Origin: Tenericutes bacterium ADurb.Bin239 | GTDB lineage: Bacteria; Bacillota_I; Bacilli_A; RFN20; CAG-826 | Assembly: GCA_002069815.1 (NCBI GenBank) | Contig: MWCB01000015.1 | Span: 1-34,621 of the forward strand | Direction: 5' to 3' | DNA length: 34,621 bases | Part shown: positions 2,030 through 30,196 of the stretch, piece by piece | Layout of the letters: every line of letters begins with the position of its first letter | Position numbering within the stretch: the first letter of the stretch is position 1 | Made by a program: the position numbers and the translations under genes | Notes under the pieces: generated by a model | Databases searched by the model: none | The model's input: only the letters and a program-made list of their open reading frames with translations | Told to the model about the DNA's origin: nothing

Positions 2030-4099
2030 TTATTTATCTTTTTCAAGCCGAGAATTAGCGGCAATGACACCTTGGAGTAAGTTGGAGGGTACTTCTTGGT
2101 AACTATCAAATTCACTATTGAAGGAACCACTCCCTTGGCTTAAGACGCGTAACTTAATAGCGTAGTCTAATAGTTCAGCTTCGGGGACAAGGGCTGTAAT
2201 TTCTTGAGTGCCATATCCACTTTCATCCATACTTAAGACGCGGGCCCGACGTTGATTAAGGTCGTTCATCACGTTACCCGTAAATTCATTAGTAACACTG
2301 ATAGTGATTTTCATAATTGGCTCTAAAAGGGTCGGAGCACAATTCATATAAGCATCACGATACGCTAAGATAGCCGCCATGCGGAAAGCTTGTTCATTAC
2401 TATCAACACTGTGATACTTACCATCAAATAAGACTGCTTTCATGCCAATAACAGGGAAACCCGCAAGTTGTCCTTCTTGGACACTTTCAAAGAATCCCTT
2501 CTCAACCGCGGGGTGATAGTTTTTGGGAACAGTTCCGCCGAAGATTTCTTCTGTAAAGACGTTTTCATCACTACCACTTGGACCAAAACGCATTTCAACG
2601 ACACCATAAAATCCGCTCCCGCCTGATTGTTTAACGTAACGACCAACAGCACTTGCTTCTCGTTTTACCGTCTCACGGTAAATAACTTGGGGAGCCTCAG
2701 TCACCGCTTCAAATCCAAACGTATTTTTAACTTTATCTAACACAAAGTTTAAGTGACTGTCACTTAAGCCCCCGAGTAAGAGTTGTTTTGTTTCGGGAAC
2801 ACGGGTAATTTCAATTGTTGGATCTTCCGCGGCCACGCGATAGAGCGACTGGATAAGTTTTTCATCATCGCGACTATTTTTAGCACCAATAGCGCGCCGA
2901 TAAACAATCGTTGGATATTTAGCCCGCGGATAGGTAACTACATCGTTTTTATCACTTAATGTATGCCCAGTGGTAATACCATCTAATTTGGCAAAAGCGA
3001 CAATATCACCAGCGATAGCTTTAGGTACGTTATTTTGTTTAGCGCCTAAAAGACTAAACATTTGCGAAGCGCGCATCGTGCTATTTAGTTCGGCATTATA
3101 AACATCGCTTCCTAATTCAAACGAACCACTGACAATAAAGGCATAATTGGTAGTGCCTTTATATTGATCAAAGACAGTTTTAAAAACATAAGCACTAAAA
3201 GGTTCATTAACACTAATCTTACGAATGACTTCCGCGCCACTGCGGTCTTTACCTTTCATTTCCTTAATGAAAGCTGGGCTTGGTAAAAATTCAATCATCT
3301 TATCAACAAGGGTATTAACCCCGATGTTTTCGGTACTACTTCCAACTAAGACCGGAGCAATTTCTCCACTTAAAACCGCTTTTTTAAGACCTTTACTAAT
3401 TTCATCAGCGCTTAACTCTTCACCGCTAAAGAATTTTTCTAGTAGGGCATCATCAGTAAGGGCAACTTGTTCAATAAGGGCATTATTCATATCCGCAACC
3501 TTAGCTTTCGTTAAGTCATCAAGTTCGGCTTCTACCCGTTTATGACCATCAGCTTTAACTGCTTTTAAGCTAATAACATCAACAAAACCGTTAAAGGTTT
3601 TCCCGTCGTTAAGCGGATAAACAAAGCTAACACCTTTTTTTCCAAGGTCACTGGTAATTTGTTCAAGTAAAGCATCAAAGTTAATTAATTCTTTATCCAT
3701 TTTATTAACGAAAATAAAGGTAGGAACCCCATATTTCTTTAAAAGGTTAAAGTGTTTGACGGTCCCCACTTCAATTCGACGCGTCGCGTCAATGACTAAG
3801 ACGGCGGCTTTAACAAAATCAAGCACCCCGATAACATCAGCGATAAAGTCGTCATTTCCTGGGGCATCAAGTAAATTTAAACGATAACCGTTATAGTCAA
3901 GGCTTATCACGGACATTGAACATGAACTTAAACGGCTTTTTTCCTCGGGGGTAAAATCGCTAATAGTGTTTTTGCGATCAACAGTACCCGCTGGTTGTTT
4001 TAAAATATTACTCGCAATTTGTTCAACAAGCGAGGTTTTTCCCGCGCCTTGGTGGCCAAGGAATATAATGTTTCTAATTTTATCTGTGGTATAACTCAT
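2030..4099 (-). CDS. EF-G-2-like translational GTPase (elongation factor G paralogue)
   Basis: 689-residue GTPase with the EF-G domain order: G domain, domain II, then domains III-V with GTVPKNYHPAVEKGF in domain IV. The P-loop GHQGAGKT is at residues 15-22, G3 is DAPGNDDF (79-86) and G4 is NKMD (131-134). Canonical EF-G has DTPGHVDF at G3; here Asn82 replaces the GTPase-activating His. EF-G-2 paralogues such as that of Thermus also depart from His here, with an Asn/Tyr-type DAPG motif, so I assign it to that group rather than the essential FusA. Its cellular role is unclear even in characterised species. AAGGAGAAATT precedes the ATG. It follows the small kinase gene by 14 bp, so the two are probably one transcript. 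Confidence 0.88.
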   Translation of the reverse strand: MSYTTDKIRNIIFLGHQGAGKTSLVEQIASNILKQPAGTVDRKNTISDFTPEEKSRLSSCSMSVISLDYNGYRLNLLDAPGNDDFIADVIGVLDFVKAAVLVIDATRRIEVGTVKHFNLLKKYGVPTFIFVNKMDKELINFDALLEQITSDLGKKGVSFVYPLNDGKTFNGFVDVISLKAVKADGHKRVEAELDDLTKAKVADMNNALIEQVALTDDALLEKFFSGEELSADEISKGLKKAVLSGEIAPVLVGSSTENIGVNTLVDKMIEFLPSPAFIKEMKGKDRSGAEVIRKISVNEPFSAYVFKTVFDQYKGTTNYAFIVSGSFELGSDVYNAELNSTMRASQMFSLLGAKQNNVPKAIAGDIVAFAKLDGITTGHTLSDKNDVVTYPRAKYPTIVYRRAIGAKNSRDDEKLIQSLYRVAAEDPTIEITRVPETKQLLLGGLSDSHLNFVLDKVKNTFGFEAVTEAPQVIYRETVKREASAVGRYVKQSGGSGFYGVVEMRFGPSGSDENVFTEEIFGGTVPKNYHPAVEKGFFESVQEGQLAGFPVIGMKAVLFDGKYHSVDSNEQAFRMAAILAYRDAYMNCAPTLLEPIMKITISVTNEFTGNVMNDLNQRRARVLSMDESGYGTQEITALVPEAELLDYAIKLRVLSQGSGSFNSEFDSYQEVPSNLLQGVIAANSRLEKDK

Positions 4100-22933: not shown

Positions 22934-23731
22934 CTAATAACTAACAACGAGGGAACGCTTCTTCTTTCTTTTATCGGCTAATATTCGAAAAGCGTAAAAT
23001 AATACAATTAACAACACTAATAATCCCACAACCATAATCTTATAAAGAAGGCGATTTCCGTTAACCATATTACTAATAATAGAATAGGGGGTGCCATCAT
23101 CTCTTTCAAGAAACATATAATTGTATGGAATCGTTAAATTGGCAATTTGCGCTAAAAGAACGACCCCTAATAAAATAGCGCATGTAATCCCCATGTTTTT
23201 ACTTTTTAATGAAGCCATTCGTGTGATTCCAATAAAAAGTGAGGCAAAAGCTGAAATACAGTGTGTAATAGCACTAACTACATTATCAAACGATAAAACC
23301 GGATAAGTATTATAATTTTGGGCCGCACCAACCGTTCCCATTATTCCAGCAATAAATCCGAAAATTAAGATAAAATCTAACGCTGCTGCCTTTAATCTCC
23401 CTTTTGAAAAAGCGGCAAGCGGTAAAGCAATCAACATAATTGAACATAAAAAGAGTGGTAAAGTATGTAAGATTGTATCAATAACATCTCCGCTTCTAAC
23501 ACAAAGGATTATGATTTTTAAAACTTCAAATGCATCAATTGCAATGGCCGCTATCATAATCGTTCGATTTTTTAGTCTTTCATTATTTCGATATTTACGT
23601 CCTAAGAAAATCCCTAGAAAAATCATAATGGCAATCATAATCGAAGTAAATAAAATATGTTGCCAACTCCAAGCCCCTTCTGGTGTACGACGATAGCCAC
23701 CGATACCAAAGAAATCCGTTAAATATATCAT
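22934..23731 (-). CDS. YwaF/TIGR02206-family integral membrane protein (TMEM164-like)
   Basis: About 265 residues with seven or eight helices. The YwaF pattern is seen in SWQHILF near the N-terminus, LPLFLCSIMLIALP with its conserved Cys, and IPYNYMFLERDD late in the protein. Human TMEM164, a distant member, is an acyltransferase in ether-phospholipid synthesis; activity here is not shown. I chose the ATG at 23729-23731 (weak GAAG upstream). A TTG at 23744-23746 would add five residues. It is a single gene with its own terminator. Confidence 0.75.
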   Translation of the reverse strand: MIYLTDFFGIGGYRRTPEGAWSWQHILFTSIMIAIMIFLGIFLGRKYRNNERLKNRTIMIAAIAIDAFEVLKIIILCVRSGDVIDTILHTLPLFLCSIMLIALPLAAFSKGRLKAAALDFILIFGFIAGIMGTVGAAQNYNTYPVLSFDNVVSAITHCISAFASLFIGITRMASLKSKNMGITCAILLGVVLLAQIANLTIPYNYMFLERDDGTPYSIISNMVNGNRLLYKIMVVGLLVLLIVLFYAFRILADKRKKKRSLVVSY

Positions 23732-23820
23732 AATTTTTTTCTTCAAATATTAGTTAACTACTTTCACTCTTTAATTTCAACAAAAAGATAGGTTATAAGT
23801 CATTTAAAGTAATTTTATGT

Positions 23821-23878: not shown

Positions 23879-25243
23879 TTAGATAGTCTTCACTACTGGA
23901 TTTGAATATGTGACTGCATAACCTGCTTTCGGCGATCCATCAGCGTACCCATAGTTAACAGCTTGTAATTCGAAGGTTTCAAGCGAAAACGTTTCATCTG
24001 TATAGGTTGCAAGGATAGTATCAGTGTACACCCAGAACCCATTGATAAAGATTTTATACGTATTGCCACTGATTTGGAAGACGACATTAAAGAATGGTAA
24101 ATTAATCGCTTCATAAGCTTCTCTTAGCGTGGTAGTAGGATCATCAATTACCATTACAGTATCTGGATCTTGGAAAATATATTGATCAGGATATTCATCA
24201 AGAGCATCATAGGTGTAATTGGTAAAGAAACGTCCCGCCCAATATGGTTCATGGAGCGTATTCACGTTGCCGAGAGGGTCATAATTATCATTACCAATGT
24301 AAGTTTGTAAGTACGTTCGACTAGTTCGCGGGCTACCTGAATTAGATAAACTCATCCACGGCGCTACACAGAACCTCTCACTAGTGTCGTAGAAGACACT
24401 TGGATCAACAAAAGCGGTAACGCTAACTTCAAAGGATGAACTCCAGAAGTTGCCAAATCTAGTCGTGGAATAATCAGGAGTTTCTAAACTTCCACCATAA
24501 TTACGCATAGTGACACCATTCCACCGATACCAAGCATTAGGATAAATTGCGGGCGGAATAGCGGTCTCGCCTGAATAATTATTAGTCGTATCGGTCGGAT
24601 TAGTAATAAACGATACGCCCGAATGAACAACTACCACATTAGCGCCTAGTGAACGCGCCCCCGCACAAACATTAACTCCTGGTTCAAAAAAGAAAGCACC
24701 ATCATTATCGTGATTACAGAAGAAATGTATTTCGAGACTATCAATCGCTATCGGCGTTAGAGAATCGGTTAAAATCATTAAATAGCCGCCAACCGTTGCG
24801 TATTCTTTAGCGACTCCACTTGTCAAAAGATCGCTGGCAACGGGGGTAAAACGTTTAAATAACGTTTCGGTCACGATTGCGTAGAGGTTTCCACTTCCCG
24901 AAAAAGTTGCTTTTACTTTCGCAATTCCGTTAATTACGGTGGTGTTCATTAAAACCCCTGGCGTTTTAGAATCACTCGCCGATAAAATGATAAATTTTTC
25001 ATTGCTTTGCAAACTTGCAGTTGAATAGTAATAACTATCGTCATTAGCCGCAATCATTCCGCGTTGTGGCGCTCCTTCTCCTGGACCATCACTAGCGGTC
25101 AAAATTCGGCTATATGCTGGCGCAAGGGGATTAGCGCCAACCCCACCCGAAAGATCTTTGTCGCGAAGCGAATGGAATAATCCAATAACGCCTAACGCTA
25201 AAAAACTAATCAAAAGCAAGCCAAGTTCTTTTTTACGTTTCAT
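23879..25243 (-). CDS. Secreted or membrane-anchored surface protein, unknown family
   Basis: 454 residues. A basic N-terminus and one hydrophobic segment (about 8-25) form a signal or anchor; there is no lipobox and no LPXTG. The rest is beta-rich, low in Lys and high in Thr, Ser, Asn and aromatics. The end (QISGNTYKIFINGFWVYT, then an AVNYGYADG strand and YSNPVVK) resembles the closing strands of concanavalin-A-like/LamG folds, so carbohydrate or glycan binding is possible but unproven. Four Cys are present, including FFCNHDN and NVCAGARS. It diverges from the riboswitch-controlled surface operon and may act with it. AAGGAGATTC precedes the ATG, and it has its own TTGACA promoter without a riboswitch. 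Confidence 0.65.
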   Translation of the reverse strand: MKRKKELGLLLISFLALGVIGLFHSLRDKDLSGGVGANPLAPAYSRILTASDGPGEGAPQRGMIAANDDSYYYSTASLQSNEKFIILSASDSKTPGVLMNTTVINGIAKVKATFSGSGNLYAIVTETLFKRFTPVASDLLTSGVAKEYATVGGYLMILTDSLTPIAIDSLEIHFFCNHDNDGAFFFEPGVNVCAGARSLGANVVVVHSGVSFITNPTDTTNNYSGETAIPPAIYPNAWYRWNGVTMRNYGGSLETPDYSTTRFGNFWSSSFEVSVTAFVDPSVFYDTSERFCVAPWMSLSNSGSPRTSRTYLQTYIGNDNYDPLGNVNTLHEPYWAGRFFTNYTYDALDEYPDQYIFQDPDTVMVIDDPTTTLREAYEAINLPFFNVVFQISGNTYKIFINGFWVYTDTILATYTDETFSLETFELQAVNYGYADGSPKAGYAVTYSNPVVKTI

Positions 25244-25374: not shown

Positions 25375-25403
25375 TTGTATCCCAAAATATATTTTGATAG
25401 AAT
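25375..25403 (+). promoter_or_regulatory. Sigma-A promoter of the riboswitch-controlled surface operon
   Basis: TTGTAT (25375-25380), 17-bp spacer ending in TG-A (extended -10), TAGAAT (25398-25403). Predicted start near 25410, just before the aptamer. Confidence 0.75.
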
Positions 25404-25410
25404 GTCATTG

Positions 25411-25482
25411 ATAAAGGCAAACCTAGAGTAATCTAGCGACGCAAAGCTATAGGATCTTGACTATGAGATAGCCAGCTACCAA
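25411..25482 (+). ncRNA. Cyclic di-GMP-I (GEMM-I) riboswitch aptamer
   Basis: Conserved GEMM-I blocks occur in order and spacing: GGCAAAC (25416-25422); a five-pair stem CTAGA/TCTAG (25423-25427 with 25432-25436) capped by a GNRA tetraloop GTAA; GACGCAAAGC (25438-25447); a second stem GCTAT/ATAGC (25446-25450 with 25468-25472) enclosing a TAGGAT...TATGAG segment that could be the tetraloop receptor; and the 3' block AGCCAGCTACC (25470-25480). By my alignment with the Vibrio Vc2 aptamer, the ligand-contacting G20 is a G here, favouring c-di-GMP over cGAMP. The outer stem is weak. It sits between a promoter and a terminator ahead of the surface operon. Confidence 0.88.
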
Positions 25483-25506
25483 GCATTTAGCACGGTAGCT
25501 TTTTTA
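25474..25506 (+). terminator. Riboswitch expression platform: terminator sharing the aptamer 3' block
   Basis: AGCTACC (25474-25480), 13-nt loop, GGTAGCT (25494-25500), TTTTTT. The left arm is part of the aptamer's conserved 3' block, so ligand-bound aptamer and terminator should exclude each other. That predicts c-di-GMP turns the operon on; this direction is inferred. Confidence 0.8.
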
Positions 25507-25535
25507 TAAAATTGGCTATCAAAAAGTGAGTAAAA

Positions 25536-26276
25536 ATGGAAAATAGAAGCGAACTAAGAAAAGTCAAGATACCCAATCGAAAAATTAAGATTTTTTTGAC
25601 GTTATTTGGAACACTAGCATCAACAATTGCGCTTACGATTGTAACATTTTCCTGGTTTGCAACGATTCGCAAAGCGGGTATTGAAAATGACACCGTTCAA
25701 GTTGTTGATACGTACGCTCATTCTTTTTCCTGTGCGCTTGATGGTGTGGCTGTTGTCGGTGATGTTGTTGAATTTACACCTTTTTATCCTGGTCACGTCC
25801 ATCGTAAAACATTAACTTTTACTCTCACTAATTTAAGTGATGATGCTTTTTCGGCTGATTTATTCTTTGAACAACCAAGCACACTTGAAGAAATACCTTA
25901 TGTTGATACGACTGGTAAATGGGGTGCAGAAAACTACTACTACTATTTAGGTAGTCAAATTTCTTTGACTTCAATTTCGCTTTTGATTGATGGTGTTACT
26001 CCAAGTTATACAAGTGGAGACGGTCAATATTTAGTGCAAACAAGTAGTGCGGGGGTGACTAAAGGTCAAGTAAATGGGGTCGCAAGTGCTGTTACTTCAA
26101 TCCCGCGTCTTAACATCATCAAAAATGTATCTATTCCGTCTAATAAAACTCTCAACGGTACTTTAGAATTTACTTTTGTAGATAATGGTACCGATCAAAG
26201 TATGTATTTTGTAGATTGGCCTCAAGAAGGTGTCTCCCAACGATTACTCTATGCCTTCTTGCACCAAGGAGTGTAA
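25536..26276 (+). CDS. TasA/camelysin-like surface protein with SipW-type signal (operon gene 1)
   Basis: 246 residues. A basic start (KVKIPNRKIKIF) and hydrophobic segment (about 20-40) end in TFSWFATIRKAG, comparable to the TWAAF box where SipW-type signal peptidase cuts TasA. The mature part looks like one beta-sandwich domain: VEFTPFYPGHVHRKTLTFTL then TNLSDDAFSADLFF resembles the PG...k.f.l.N.s pattern of TasA/camelysin proteins. A Tyr-rich patch (ENYYYYLG) follows, and the end is LEFTFVDNGTDQ. The likely role is a subunit or minor part of an extracellular fibre; this is by analogy. The ribosome binding site is weak (AGTGAG). It is the first gene after the c-di-GMP riboswitch. Confidence 0.65.
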   Translation: MENRSELRKVKIPNRKIKIFLTLFGTLASTIALTIVTFSWFATIRKAGIENDTVQVVDTYAHSFSCALDGVAVVGDVVEFTPFYPGHVHRKTLTFTLTNLSDDAFSADLFFEQPSTLEEIPYVDTTGKWGAENYYYYLGSQISLTSISLLIDGVTPSYTSGDGQYLVQTSSAGVTKGQVNGVASAVTSIPRLNIIKNVSIPSNKTLNGTLEFTFVDNGTDQSMYFVDWPQEGVSQRLLYAFLHQGV

Positions 26277-26277
26277 T

Positions 26278-26976
26278 ATGAAAAAAAGGAACCGCGATGT
26301 CATTAGAATGCTGTGGCTTACTATTCTCTCGCTTGTGACCAGCGTTTCTGTTACCTATGCTTGGCATACTTCATTTTATAATTTTGGGAATATCGATAAT
26401 ATCCCTGGTGAACTTGATCCAACGATGTCACTTGCTTATTATGACTATGATAGCAGCGGTTGGCAAAGTAGTAGCGCTACGAATCCATTAGAAATTGATC
26501 TTGGGAAGATGACTAACATTGCCGAATTACCTGATAATAGCGATTGTTATTTAAAATTTAGAGTTAATGAAACTAGTGATGCCCAAACAAATTACAATGT
26601 TTTCGTTGATAATATCGTCATTACTATATCAAATACCGATGGGGTTCATACCGTTGAAGCGGTTAATTACTTTGCTGCTGATCAAGCGCAAAATGTCTTT
26701 GATTTTTACGTCTATACTTCAACAACGGATAATCTTAGTCCGTTGACCGTCTTTGCCAATTATCAATCAATGACATCGTTCAAAGTAACAACATTACCAA
26801 AAGCTTTACTTAGTGATAATATTTCGTTAGATGATTGGACTTACATCTTCCTAAAACCAAATCTTGAAAAAATTCAAAATATTATTCGCTTAGTCCCTGT
26901 TACATTATCGCCTTATCATATAACTTTTGAAATATCGCTGAGAGGGGAGGTTAAAACGCTCGATGAAATCGCATAA
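26278..26976 (+). CDS. Surface protein with SipW-type signal (operon gene 2)
   Basis: 232 residues from the ATG at 26278-26280, with AAGGAG 6 nt upstream inside the previous gene. A start at 26230 in the same frame has no such site. The basic N-terminus MKKRNRDV leads to a hydrophobic segment ending VTYAWHTSFYNFG, the same box type as its neighbours. The mature domain is beta-rich and acidic (YLKFRVNETSDAQTNYNVFV, then VDNIVITISNTDG) and ends in a strand-rich tail (ITFEISLRGEVKTLD). There is no wall-sorting motif. It overlaps gene 3 by 14 nt. Probably a fibre or envelope component; no family recognised. Confidence 0.6.
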   Translation: MKKRNRDVIRMLWLTILSLVTSVSVTYAWHTSFYNFGNIDNIPGELDPTMSLAYYDYDSSGWQSSSATNPLEIDLGKMTNIAELPDNSDCYLKFRVNETSDAQTNYNVFVDNIVITISNTDGVHTVEAVNYFAADQAQNVFDFYVYTSTTDNLSPLTVFANYQSMTSFKVTTLPKALLSDNISLDDWTYIFLKPNLEKIQNIIRLVPVTLSPYHITFEISLRGEVKTLDEIA

Positions 26977-29900
26977 ATTTAAAACTAAAATGAGTAAGTT
27001 GTGGATTTTAATCACCGTTTTTTGCTCTTTTGTATTAACGATTGCCTATCCAACATATGCTTTTTTCCGCGCTAATACCGAACGACAAGTTGAACCAACT
27101 CTCGAAATTGAAGTGCTTTTTGGTCGCTTACGGGAAGATCTTGTCAGTGGCGAATGGGGAACAGAGTACAATCCTTACTTAATCATGACAACGGAGCATT
27201 TATCAAACCTTTCAGTCTTACAAAATGGTGCTTATAGCAACTACATTAATGAAAATAGTGTGTTCCAAGTTTCTGATGAAAACGGTGATCCAATTTACGT
27301 TGGGGGAACGAGCGCTAATCAATTATTTGATATGCAATCAATCGGTACTGAAGACTTTCCATTCATATCAAAATTTAGAGGCATCACTACGACGGATCCT
27401 AATAAATATATTCAAAATATACCAACAGGCGAAGTCACGGATACGAGTGTTATTGGGAATATTCGAATAAACCCCTATCCGGGCCAAGTCGATATTGGTT
27501 TATTTGGGAATGTCGGGCCTGATGTTGAGGGTGATGAAATTCCAGAAAGTGATTACCAAGGCGAAATTTCTAATATACTTTTATATAATGTTCAAATTAG
27601 CACGAATGTCGTGGGGGTAGCACCCGCTGGTCATAATGGCTATGCTAAAATTAGCACCAAAGAAACAAACCACATTGGAATTTTAGCGGGCCACGTTCAA
27701 TTTGCTAATTTAGATCGCATCAGCGTCTATTATTCAGAAACAAATGGGGTGGCCCATGTTGATGCTTTTAATGTCAGTGCTGGTGATACCGCGAAATATA
27801 CTACTTCAGGCGGTATTATTGGCTACTACAAAGAAGTCATAGTTGATGGGGAAATTGATAATCCGATTACAAGTGATGGTACCGACCAAGGCGTTGGTAG
27901 CAGCGCGGCGGGTCTTGGTAAAGGCATTGTGTATGCACAAGATATCTGGACTTTTATGGAAGATAACACTAGTGTCGGTAAACCCGCCCCAAATACATCT
28001 TATGATTTGCAAGATACTTTTGGGGACGAACTTTATGATAGCGGCAATAATTCTTATTTCCATGTCGGCGTTTTTACCTTTGCTCATAGCCGGCAAGCGC
28101 GCGGAAAAGATCGGATTGCCAAAATTTGGACGGCCCAAAATCCAAATGCGTGGACCATTTCGACGGAAAATTCTAACCCTTATACCCAAACAACGCGTGA
28201 TGCTGGTCCAGCAACCCGTTATACCGCTACTAGGATTACCCGCTCACAAATAAACTGGACTTCTTCTGGTGGTTGGTGGCCAACTTATAGTGGTAGTCTG
28301 CTTAGTCCTTATAATAATAACGCTAATTATCGTTATATGCTTGTCTATGAAGATACAAGCTACACTCCTGCAAAACACTATGCCCTTGTGCGCTATGGTT
28401 CAACCGCTATTGGTATACAAATTGATCCCACTAACTTAGTCATTCCTGATGGCGAGCTTAAATATTTTACCTTTGAAAACTTAAACACGCGTACTGCTGA
28501 TATCACCTATCCACCGTATGAATCTGGCTTCTCCTATCGTTTTGAAGGACCGATTACTATGGATTTCCGTCAATACAATGCAAGTAGTGGTGTTTTACAA
28601 TATGCTGTTTATGGTGATATTATCTATGGCGAAATAAACGGAGAAACGAAAATAATTGAAGCACCGCGACCACTGCGAATTAATGCGCAAAGCGGCGCCA
28701 CTCCAACGGCAAGTTTCATGGCGACTGCTTCAACTGGTAGTACTCCGTATGTTGAAGGTCTGCGGATTAGTCCTATCTCAAATACTGATCCTAATTTTAA
28801 TAAGTTTTATATTTTACGAACTGGGTCTAATAGCAGCGGTAATAATTTCTCGCAATGGTTTATGACTTACTCAGCAGCCAATGGTTTTAGTGCGGTCCAA
28901 GCTTCACGACCAAATGCTAACACCACAGCCTTTTCGCTTTACGCCGTTCGCTATACTGACAATGCCAGTAACCCCAGCGAAAGTCCTGTTGCTACCCGCA
29001 ACATTCTTGAAGAATATATTCCAAATGGTACTACATCAACCATTAATACCGAAGAAAATGTGCTTTACTATACCGGTCAATATAATTCAAGCGTCAACAC
29101 AACCCGTTATAGCTATGAACTTAAAGAAATTAGTTCGCTCGGTTGGGTTGATAATAGCAATAAAGCAATTACAAAAGGCGATACGGCACTTATTATGGGT
29201 GATCCTACTTCCTATTACTATATTAGAAACTCCTCCGGCGTTGAGCGTTATTTCGGTGTGAACACCGGCATACCATCACCAATTGATGGACCTGATATTA
29301 ACGTGCCAGAAGGGAGTATTGGCTTTACGGTCAGTGCTAAAGAGCCTGGTTCGACGGAAACGACCGCGACTATTAATGTCATTGTCGCAACTGACCCTAG
29401 CCAAGGGGTTGAACAATTAATTACGGTTAGCCGCTTTGGCACTGGGACAACGCTTGTGGGGGATAGACAGTTAATAAGCGGATTTGTCCTGCCGCCGCCG
29501 CCAGGATCCACGATTATTGGCACTAAACAAATTTATTTAAAAACCGAGGCGGCTGGTCCAACTTATCCCGTCTATCCTAACTTTAATCGCTTATTAGTGG
29601 CCTACTCTTTTGAAGTTAATATTGAAACTGTACCAATTACTTATTTCCTTGAAGCTTCACGCGGGACAGCATGTTTCGTCTATTTATCAAGTGATCGGGT
29701 CGCGGCTAATGACAATAACCCGCTTCACGAAAATGATATTGTTTTCCCCTCGTTAGCCAATATTGACTATGTTTTTAAAACACAAACAAACTTTATTGCC
29801 ACAGTCGGCGGCACTGATTATATTCCTTCGCTTACCGTGCCTTATTTTGGAATTAGAAGCAATCCGGACTATGATAAAAACAATCCTACTTTACACGATT

Positions 29901-30196
29901 TTTTCCTTGTAACCGCGGTAATTGGGTTTGATTTCGTTTATAACATTGCCCGGCTCTATGATCCGAGCACTGATGAAAAGTGTTTCCTCTATATTCATAT
30001 TACCGCTAATGTTAATGGCAGTGGTTACACCGCGCCGATTAATGTCCAGCAATTAAATACCATTCAACAAAATATGAACTTTAACTTTACGGAAAATTCG
30101 CATCTTGACAGTTCAACTAATCTGTTCGTGCATAGCGATCGCGTTTATTTGAATATTAACGGCTATTTACTTGAAGATTGGTCCGTTATCGAATAA
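26963..30196 (+). CDS. Giant surface adhesin-like protein with SipW-type signal (operon gene 3)
   Basis: 1077 residues, starting 12 nt after GGGGAGG. The N-terminal hydrophobic segment (about 12-30) ends YPTYAFFRANTERQ, the same box as genes 1 and 2. A region follows whose opening, WGTEYNPYLIMTTEHLSNLS, recalls the GT..NPY.I.t.e.L..L. start of GLUG or right-handed beta-helix adhesins, with strand-turn units such as HIGILAGHVQFANLDRISVY and GGIIGYY. The middle and C-terminal parts are Thr/Ser/Asn/Tyr-rich beta domains with few charges. There is no LPXTG, SLH or C-terminal anchor, so attachment would be by the uncleaved N-terminus or through fibre partners. Likely an adhesin or matrix protein; this is inferred from composition and context. 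Confidence 0.65.
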   Translation: MKSHKFKTKMSKLWILITVFCSFVLTIAYPTYAFFRANTERQVEPTLEIEVLFGRLREDLVSGEWGTEYNPYLIMTTEHLSNLSVLQNGAYSNYINENSVFQVSDENGDPIYVGGTSANQLFDMQSIGTEDFPFISKFRGITTTDPNKYIQNIPTGEVTDTSVIGNIRINPYPGQVDIGLFGNVGPDVEGDEIPESDYQGEISNILLYNVQISTNVVGVAPAGHNGYAKISTKETNHIGILAGHVQFANLDRISVYYSETNGVAHVDAFNVSAGDTAKYTTSGGIIGYYKEVIVDGEIDNPITSDGTDQGVGSSAAGLGKGIVYAQDIWTFMEDNTSVGKPAPNTSYDLQDTFGDELYDSGNNSYFHVGVFTFAHSRQARGKDRIAKIWTAQNPNAWTISTENSNPYTQTTRDAGPATRYTATRITRSQINWTSSGGWWPTYSGSLLSPYNNNANYRYMLVYEDTSYTPAKHYALVRYGSTAIGIQIDPTNLVIPDGELKYFTFENLNTRTADITYPPYESGFSYRFEGPITMDFRQYNASSGVLQYAVYGDIIYGEINGETKIIEAPRPLRINAQSGATPTASFMATASTGSTPYVEGLRISPISNTDPNFNKFYILRTGSNSSGNNFSQWFMTYSAANGFSAVQASRPNANTTAFSLYAVRYTDNASNPSESPVATRNILEEYIPNGTTSTINTEENVLYYTGQYNSSVNTTRYSYELKEISSLGWVDNSNKAITKGDTALIMGDPTSYYYIRNSSGVERYFGVNTGIPSPIDGPDINVPEGSIGFTVSAKEPGSTETTATINVIVATDPSQGVEQLITVSRFGTGTTLVGDRQLISGFVLPPPPGSTIIGTKQIYLKTEAAGPTYPVYPNFNRLLVAYSFEVNIETVPITYFLEASRGTACFVYLSSDRVAANDNNPLHENDIVFPSLANIDYVFKTQTNFIATVGGTDYIPSLTVPYFGIRSNPDYDKNNPTLHDFFLVTAVIGFDFVYNIARLYDPSTDEKCFLYIHITANVNGSGYTAPINVQQLNTIQQNMNFNFTENSHLDSSTNLFVHSDRVYLNINGYLLEDWSVIE

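Follow-up and report, generated by a model that had tools for sequence, protein, structure and literature searches.

The 34,621-nucleotide (nt) stretch analysed here, referred to as the window, is contig 15 (MWCB01000015.1) of the draft genome of Tenericutes bacterium ADurb.Bin239, an uncultured, small-genome relative of Bacilli whose assembly comprises 1.29 megabases (Mb) in 68 contigs and is 94% complete. On the forward strand of the window, a promoter, a class I cyclic di-GMP (c-di-GMP-I, or GEMM-I) riboswitch and an intrinsic terminator precede three genes for exported proteins, the first two of which nearly touch while the last two overlap by 14 bases (Table 1). The riboswitch probably acts as a transcriptional ON switch of this three-gene surface-protein operon, as part of a lineage-wide regulon. 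An initial annotation, made from the sequence alone, had described three large secreted proteins; their export and the tight spacing of their genes hold, but only the third product is large.

Table 1. Features of the riboswitch-controlled operon in the window
Feature	Position	Strand	Description
Promoter	25375-25403	+	-35 TTGTAT (25375-25380), 17-nt spacer, -10 TAGAAT (25398-25403)
c-di-GMP-I (GEMM-I) riboswitch aptamer	25406-25483	+	RF01051, 61 bits
Intrinsic terminator	stem 25474-25500, U6 25500-25505	+	Predicted by folding; 5' arm is the aptamer 3' strand
GGCTATC	25514-25520	+	Complementary to aptamer GATAGCC (25467-25473); between terminator and ribosome-binding site
Gene 1	25536-26276	+	246-amino-acid exported protein; N-terminal transmembrane helix, then SWF motif, beta-rich ectodomain
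Gene 2	26278-26976	+	232-amino-acid exported protein; TYAWH motif after transmembrane helix
Gene 3	26963-30196	+	1077-amino-acid exported protein, adhesin-like; large member of what we call the BIG family

The aptamer matched positions 1-87 of the Rfam model RF01051, that is, the whole model (E-value 9.8e-10 for a search of the window; gathering threshold 35 bits), so that the search proposed with the initial annotation scored well over threshold and its GEMM-I assignment was confirmed. This was the sole RF01051 match in the genome. The window aptamer carries a G before CAAA, an A after GACGC and a C in the 3' ACC, positions that we take to be ligand contacts.

The promoter of the window copy is weak, and it fell below the threshold of a sigma-70 consensus scan. 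Within the genus, the comparison covered four genomes, namely that of the window and those of Tenericutes bacterium ADurb.Bin087, Bacillales bacterium UBA1361 and an uncultured Bacillales bacterium. In the aligned columns, two members carry TTGACA-17-TATAAT and a third carries TTGCAA with TATAAT; the sigma-A promoter proposed initially, which the scan of the window copy alone had missed, is therefore credible because near-consensus promoters occupy the same aligned position in the relatives.

The terminator stem is formed by the arms AGCUACC...GGUAGCU, and its 5' arm includes the AGCU at 25474-25477, whose partner in the Rfam aptamer structure is 25445-25448. A simple terminator scan of the window did not list the element at 25474-25505 because its outer loop exceeds the length allowed by the scan. 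The minimum free energy structure of the leader cut at 25484 contained the aptamer helices, and with the terminator added, the terminator replaced the aptamer; the full leader reached -23.3 kcal/mol in the terminator fold, compared with -14.7 kcal/mol when the aptamer pairs were enforced. Because the 5' arm of the terminator reuses the 3' strand of the aptamer, the two folds are mutually exclusive, and an ON switch is therefore predicted.

The recurrence of this layout was evaluated in a first set of 42 riboswitches (from the window, its relatives and contig L081, described below) and in a hold-out set of 58 fetched later. A terminator of -8 kcal/mol or better with its 5' arm starting inside the aptamer was present in 34 of the 42, compared with 10-19 when spacers were shuffled with the aptamer and U-tract kept, and with 23-31 when downstream parts were swapped between loci. 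The mean terminator energy was -15.8 kcal/mol and about -10 to -12 kcal/mol after swapping. Overlapping terminators of -12 kcal/mol or better were found in 35 of the 58 hold-out riboswitches, as opposed to 7-13 after shuffling. A minority of riboswitches show no overlapping terminator, and hence other platforms exist. Altogether, the strand sharing noticed in the initial annotation was recovered, with 25474-25477 common to both folds and the layout recurring above shuffled controls, and the reasoning towards an ON switch gained support from the fold exclusion and from the relatives, the direction itself being a prediction. The riboswitch thus very probably switches on the three surface-protein genes. 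The GGCTATC element downstream of the terminator, which two further members of the genus retain as GGCTAT and the fourth lacks, may act on read-through transcripts or on translation.

The riboswitch and the three genes occur in the same order in all four genus genomes. Orthologues of protein 1 are 63, 63, 37 and 32% identical, and those of protein 2 are 70, 65, 41 and 28% identical. A fifth copy, in which the riboswitch scores 72.7 bits and the proteins are 28-42% identical, adjoins an rpoB-like gene on contig L081 (4423-9255), which is labelled Christensenella sp. UBA3944; either the RNA and its operon seem to have moved as one unit, possibly by horizontal transfer, or the Christensenella label is wrong.

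The enzymes of c-di-GMP metabolism are also encoded in the genome. Four GGDEF (diguanylate cyclase) domains and two EAL domains scored over cut-off, and the diguanylate cyclase whose absence the initial annotation had named as evidence against its proposal is thus present. Amongst 196 genomes sampled across the order, the riboswitch was found in 75 and GGDEF in 87; GGDEF was present in 72 of the 75 riboswitch genomes compared with 15 of the 121 others (Fisher p about 2e-34, with shared ancestry ignored). Additionally, in several relatives the distance between a GGDEF gene and a riboswitch is no more than a few kilobases.

Across the order, the genes downstream of 101 riboswitches were read, and 87 of these riboswitches lie ahead of genes for surface proteins or for their assembly. 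In 40 operons a relative of protein 3, or comparable cargo, is encoded in the absence of AAA+ or DUF2357 genes, while 38 carry AAA+/DUF2357 genes (35 together with surface proteins and three without a recognised one); nine contain recognised surface proteins only, often being truncated where the contig stops, and 14 are of other kinds, all of these counts being approximate because the profiles were built on the first 42 loci. Most AAA+/DUF2357 operons also encode a SipW-type signal peptidase (best NCBIfam match SipW, below the strict cut-off), an EAL protein was recognised in 22 operons, and some assembly operons include a nucleoside phosphorylase-like protein. The AAA+ protein is a membrane protein with an invariant P-loop, and the AAA+/DUF2357 pair resembles McrBC-like systems. 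Examples of such assembly operons behind GEMM-I riboswitches (L056 from 9804, L050 from 1701 and L036 from 3347) combine exported AWF-type proteins, the membrane AAA+ ATPase, DUF2357, the SipW-type peptidase, EAL and sometimes the nucleoside phosphorylase. One genus member, G003, and many relatives do have SipW; a TIGR02228 match on contig 8 of the window's genome was rejected as SipW, being a signal peptidase of the general type with housekeeping genes as neighbours.

These counts strengthened the earlier suggestion of an undescribed c-di-GMP-controlled system, and the operon in the window resembles a single cargo unit within a surface-protein regulon under c-di-GMP riboswitches that seems not to have been described. 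For the order as a whole, we lean towards the view that there is an undescribed surface-fibre system for which the c-di-GMP-I riboswitch serves as the dedicated master switch. In this view, cargo operons are joined by assembly operons that encode the SipW-type peptidase, a McrB-like AAA+ ATPase anchored in the membrane and its DUF2357 partner; many assembly operons also encode an EAL phosphodiesterase, which would give negative feedback on c-di-GMP.

In proteins 1, 2 and 3 the hydrophobic N-terminal helix is followed by an aromatic SipW-like motif (SWF, TYAWH and TYAFF, respectively), from which SipW-type signal sequences are inferred on all three. AWF-type profiles match proteins 1 and 2 in their N-terminal regions, and it is only this helix and the aromatic motif that the two proteins share with small proteins of other loci. 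Protein 3 is matched over residues 1-715 by an order-wide profile built without the genus (E-value 5.7e-17, against a small target set). A GLUG-like beta-helix seen by eye in its N-terminal part was rejected, having no Pfam support in five relatives, and its AlphaFold model has a predicted local distance difference test (pLDDT) score of 33. The model of protein 1 (pLDDT 74.6) consists of an N-terminal helix and a beta ectodomain, and its comparison with the TasA fibre subunit 8aur_A, a jelly-roll fold, gave Z 7.5 and a root-mean-square deviation of 3.4 over 139 residues, the most aligned residues in the fold list. The initial label of TasA-like proteins is thus reduced to a possibility, since Z 7.5 ties with pilin Ig-like domains and is reached by unrelated models; the alignment extends over the greater part of TasA, and no sequence family matched.

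To the computed features (aptamer, terminator overlap, gene order, conservation and GGDEF co-occurrence) the following model adds ligand binding, the direction of switching and a fibre role, which we infer. RNA polymerase would start just upstream of the aptamer core. At low c-di-GMP, the aptamer 3' strand (25474-25480) would pair with the downstream GGUAGCU and transcription would end at the U-tract, while at high c-di-GMP the bound aptamer would retain this strand, no terminator would form and the three exported proteins would be made, probably as components or decorations of a surface fibre or matrix. Elsewhere in the lineage the same riboswitch would drive the assembly operon (membrane AAA+ ATPase, DUF2357 and SipW-type peptidase), and the EAL phosphodiesterase encoded in many such operons would lower c-di-GMP again.

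Two alternatives concern the switch itself. Recognition of another ligand, such as 3',3'-cyclic GMP-AMP, as for some GEMM-I variants, appears very improbable. The variant model RF03167 (c-di-GMP-I-GGC) does score on the window aptamer at 55.3 bits, under its own cut-off of 59, and just exceeds this cut-off in two genus members, but RF01051 scores higher in the window, and the riboswitch and GGDEF co-occur very strongly. Moreover, the A after GACGC and the G before the C.AA block, presumably the positions that set specificity, are kept in 97 and 100, respectively, of the 101 lineage aptamers. Repression of the operon by c-di-GMP, through an OFF switch or a bias of that kind from co-transcriptional kinetics, is unlikely, if a little less so. 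It would fit the relatives that lack an overlapping terminator as well as Clostridioides difficile, where class I riboswitches are mostly OFF switches (PMC6200980) and from which it follows that riboswitch class alone does not set the sign. The ON prediction comes instead from the strand shared by aptamer and terminator: a strand of the aptamer itself serves as the terminator arm and no distinct anti-terminator was seen, the full-leader fold excludes the aptamer, and most relatives have the strand-sharing layout, above shuffled controls.

A further alternative keeps the riboswitch as described and concerns its cargo. It is quite possible that the three proteins form an adhesin complex, an S-layer-like coat or a pilin-like surface assembly, given that a TasA/camelysin family match is absent, that the protein 1 model fits TasA no better than it fits the Ig-like domains of pilin backbones and that protein 3 is large, exported and of adhesin-like size; on the other side, operons encoding a SipW-type signal peptidase are under this riboswitch across the order, and SipW is the peptidase that processes TasA and BsaA polymers (PMC7395162). 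Besides the mostly OFF class I riboswitches of C. difficile, several observations weigh against a c-di-GMP-activated fibre operon. The window terminator, at -11.6 kcal/mol, is amongst the weaker ones; no terminator is visible on contig L081, where the riboswitch and genes are kept; and the GGDEF association takes no account of shared ancestry. Searches of the 94% complete draft recovered neither SipW nor the AAA+ protein nor further AWF-type proteins. Proteins 1-3 gave no sequence match in Pfam, NCBIfam or PDB and no TasA or camelysin hit, and a Foldseek search with the protein 1 model returned nothing significant. TasA/camelysin profile hits were likewise absent amongst the related small proteins scanned (Pfam, NCBIfam), a PHROG search of the operon proteins gave no match worth following, and a viral fold library gave nothing meaningful, absent fold matches not being counted as evidence.

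Other observations were made at related riboswitches and beside the operon. At locus L061, two GEMM-I aptamers (3009-3087 and 3500-3579), spaced by about 490 nt, precede a single operon, and neighbouring pairs also occur in G054:C1 and G054:C10. The top GEMM-I score amongst the relatives (81.5 bits, L048:5780-5869) belongs to a genome without GGDEF and to a contig with integrase-like genes; this riboswitch is probably part of a mobile element or a contaminant. In the window, the reverse strand encodes a membrane protein (22934-23746) matching Pfam TMEM164 (E-value 2.5e-18), a family that takes its name from a eukaryotic protein, and a divergent 454-amino-acid exported protein of no known family (23879-25243), whose start lies about 290 nt from the start codon of the riboswitch operon.

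If the proposed ON switch is true, a second messenger exerts direct, RNA-based control in cis over surface proteins of the SipW type, and does so throughout an order represented mostly by draft genomes. That membrane AAA+ and DUF2357 proteins repeatedly occur together hints at a secretion or assembly machine that is absent from the literature searched. In the open-access literature, as covered by titles, abstracts and term counts, no c-di-GMP riboswitch was found as a regulator of TasA, SipW or camelysin.

Matrix fibres of Bacillus subtilis are controlled by protein repressors. The TapA-SipW-TasA operon of this species resembles the window operon in encoding several exported proteins and in the aromatic motif after the signal helix, and the alignment of the protein 1 model covers most of TasA (at a score tied with pilin domains, as noted above), with no sequence match. 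In contrast, TapA-SipW-TasA is controlled by SinR and includes SipW, whereas the window operon is predicted to be under a riboswitch and has no SipW gene, the SipW-type peptidase being encoded in related operons of its relatives. The SipW-BsaA system of Clostridium perfringens likewise combines a SipW peptidase with small exported polymer-forming proteins; its expression needs a two-component system, and riboswitch control is not mentioned in the passages covered (PMC7395162). The c-di-GMP regulon of C. difficile is similar in having several riboswitches per genome that control surface structures, but there class I is mostly OFF and ON control of adhesins is exerted by class II (PMC6200980), whereas class I with ON control is predicted here. 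The nearest mechanistic precedent is Bc2 RNA of Bacillus thuringiensis, a c-di-GMP-I ON switch of the collagen adhesin gene cap (PMC4933901), which shares with the window the aptamer class, the terminator platform, the ON logic (predicted here) and a surface adhesin target. Bc2 controls a single adhesin gene, whereas the window riboswitch precedes genes for three unrelated proteins with SipW-type signals and belongs to an order-wide regulon with dedicated assembly genes; the riboswitch class and the ON mechanism are therefore already known, and their use on this surface-protein regulon is new.

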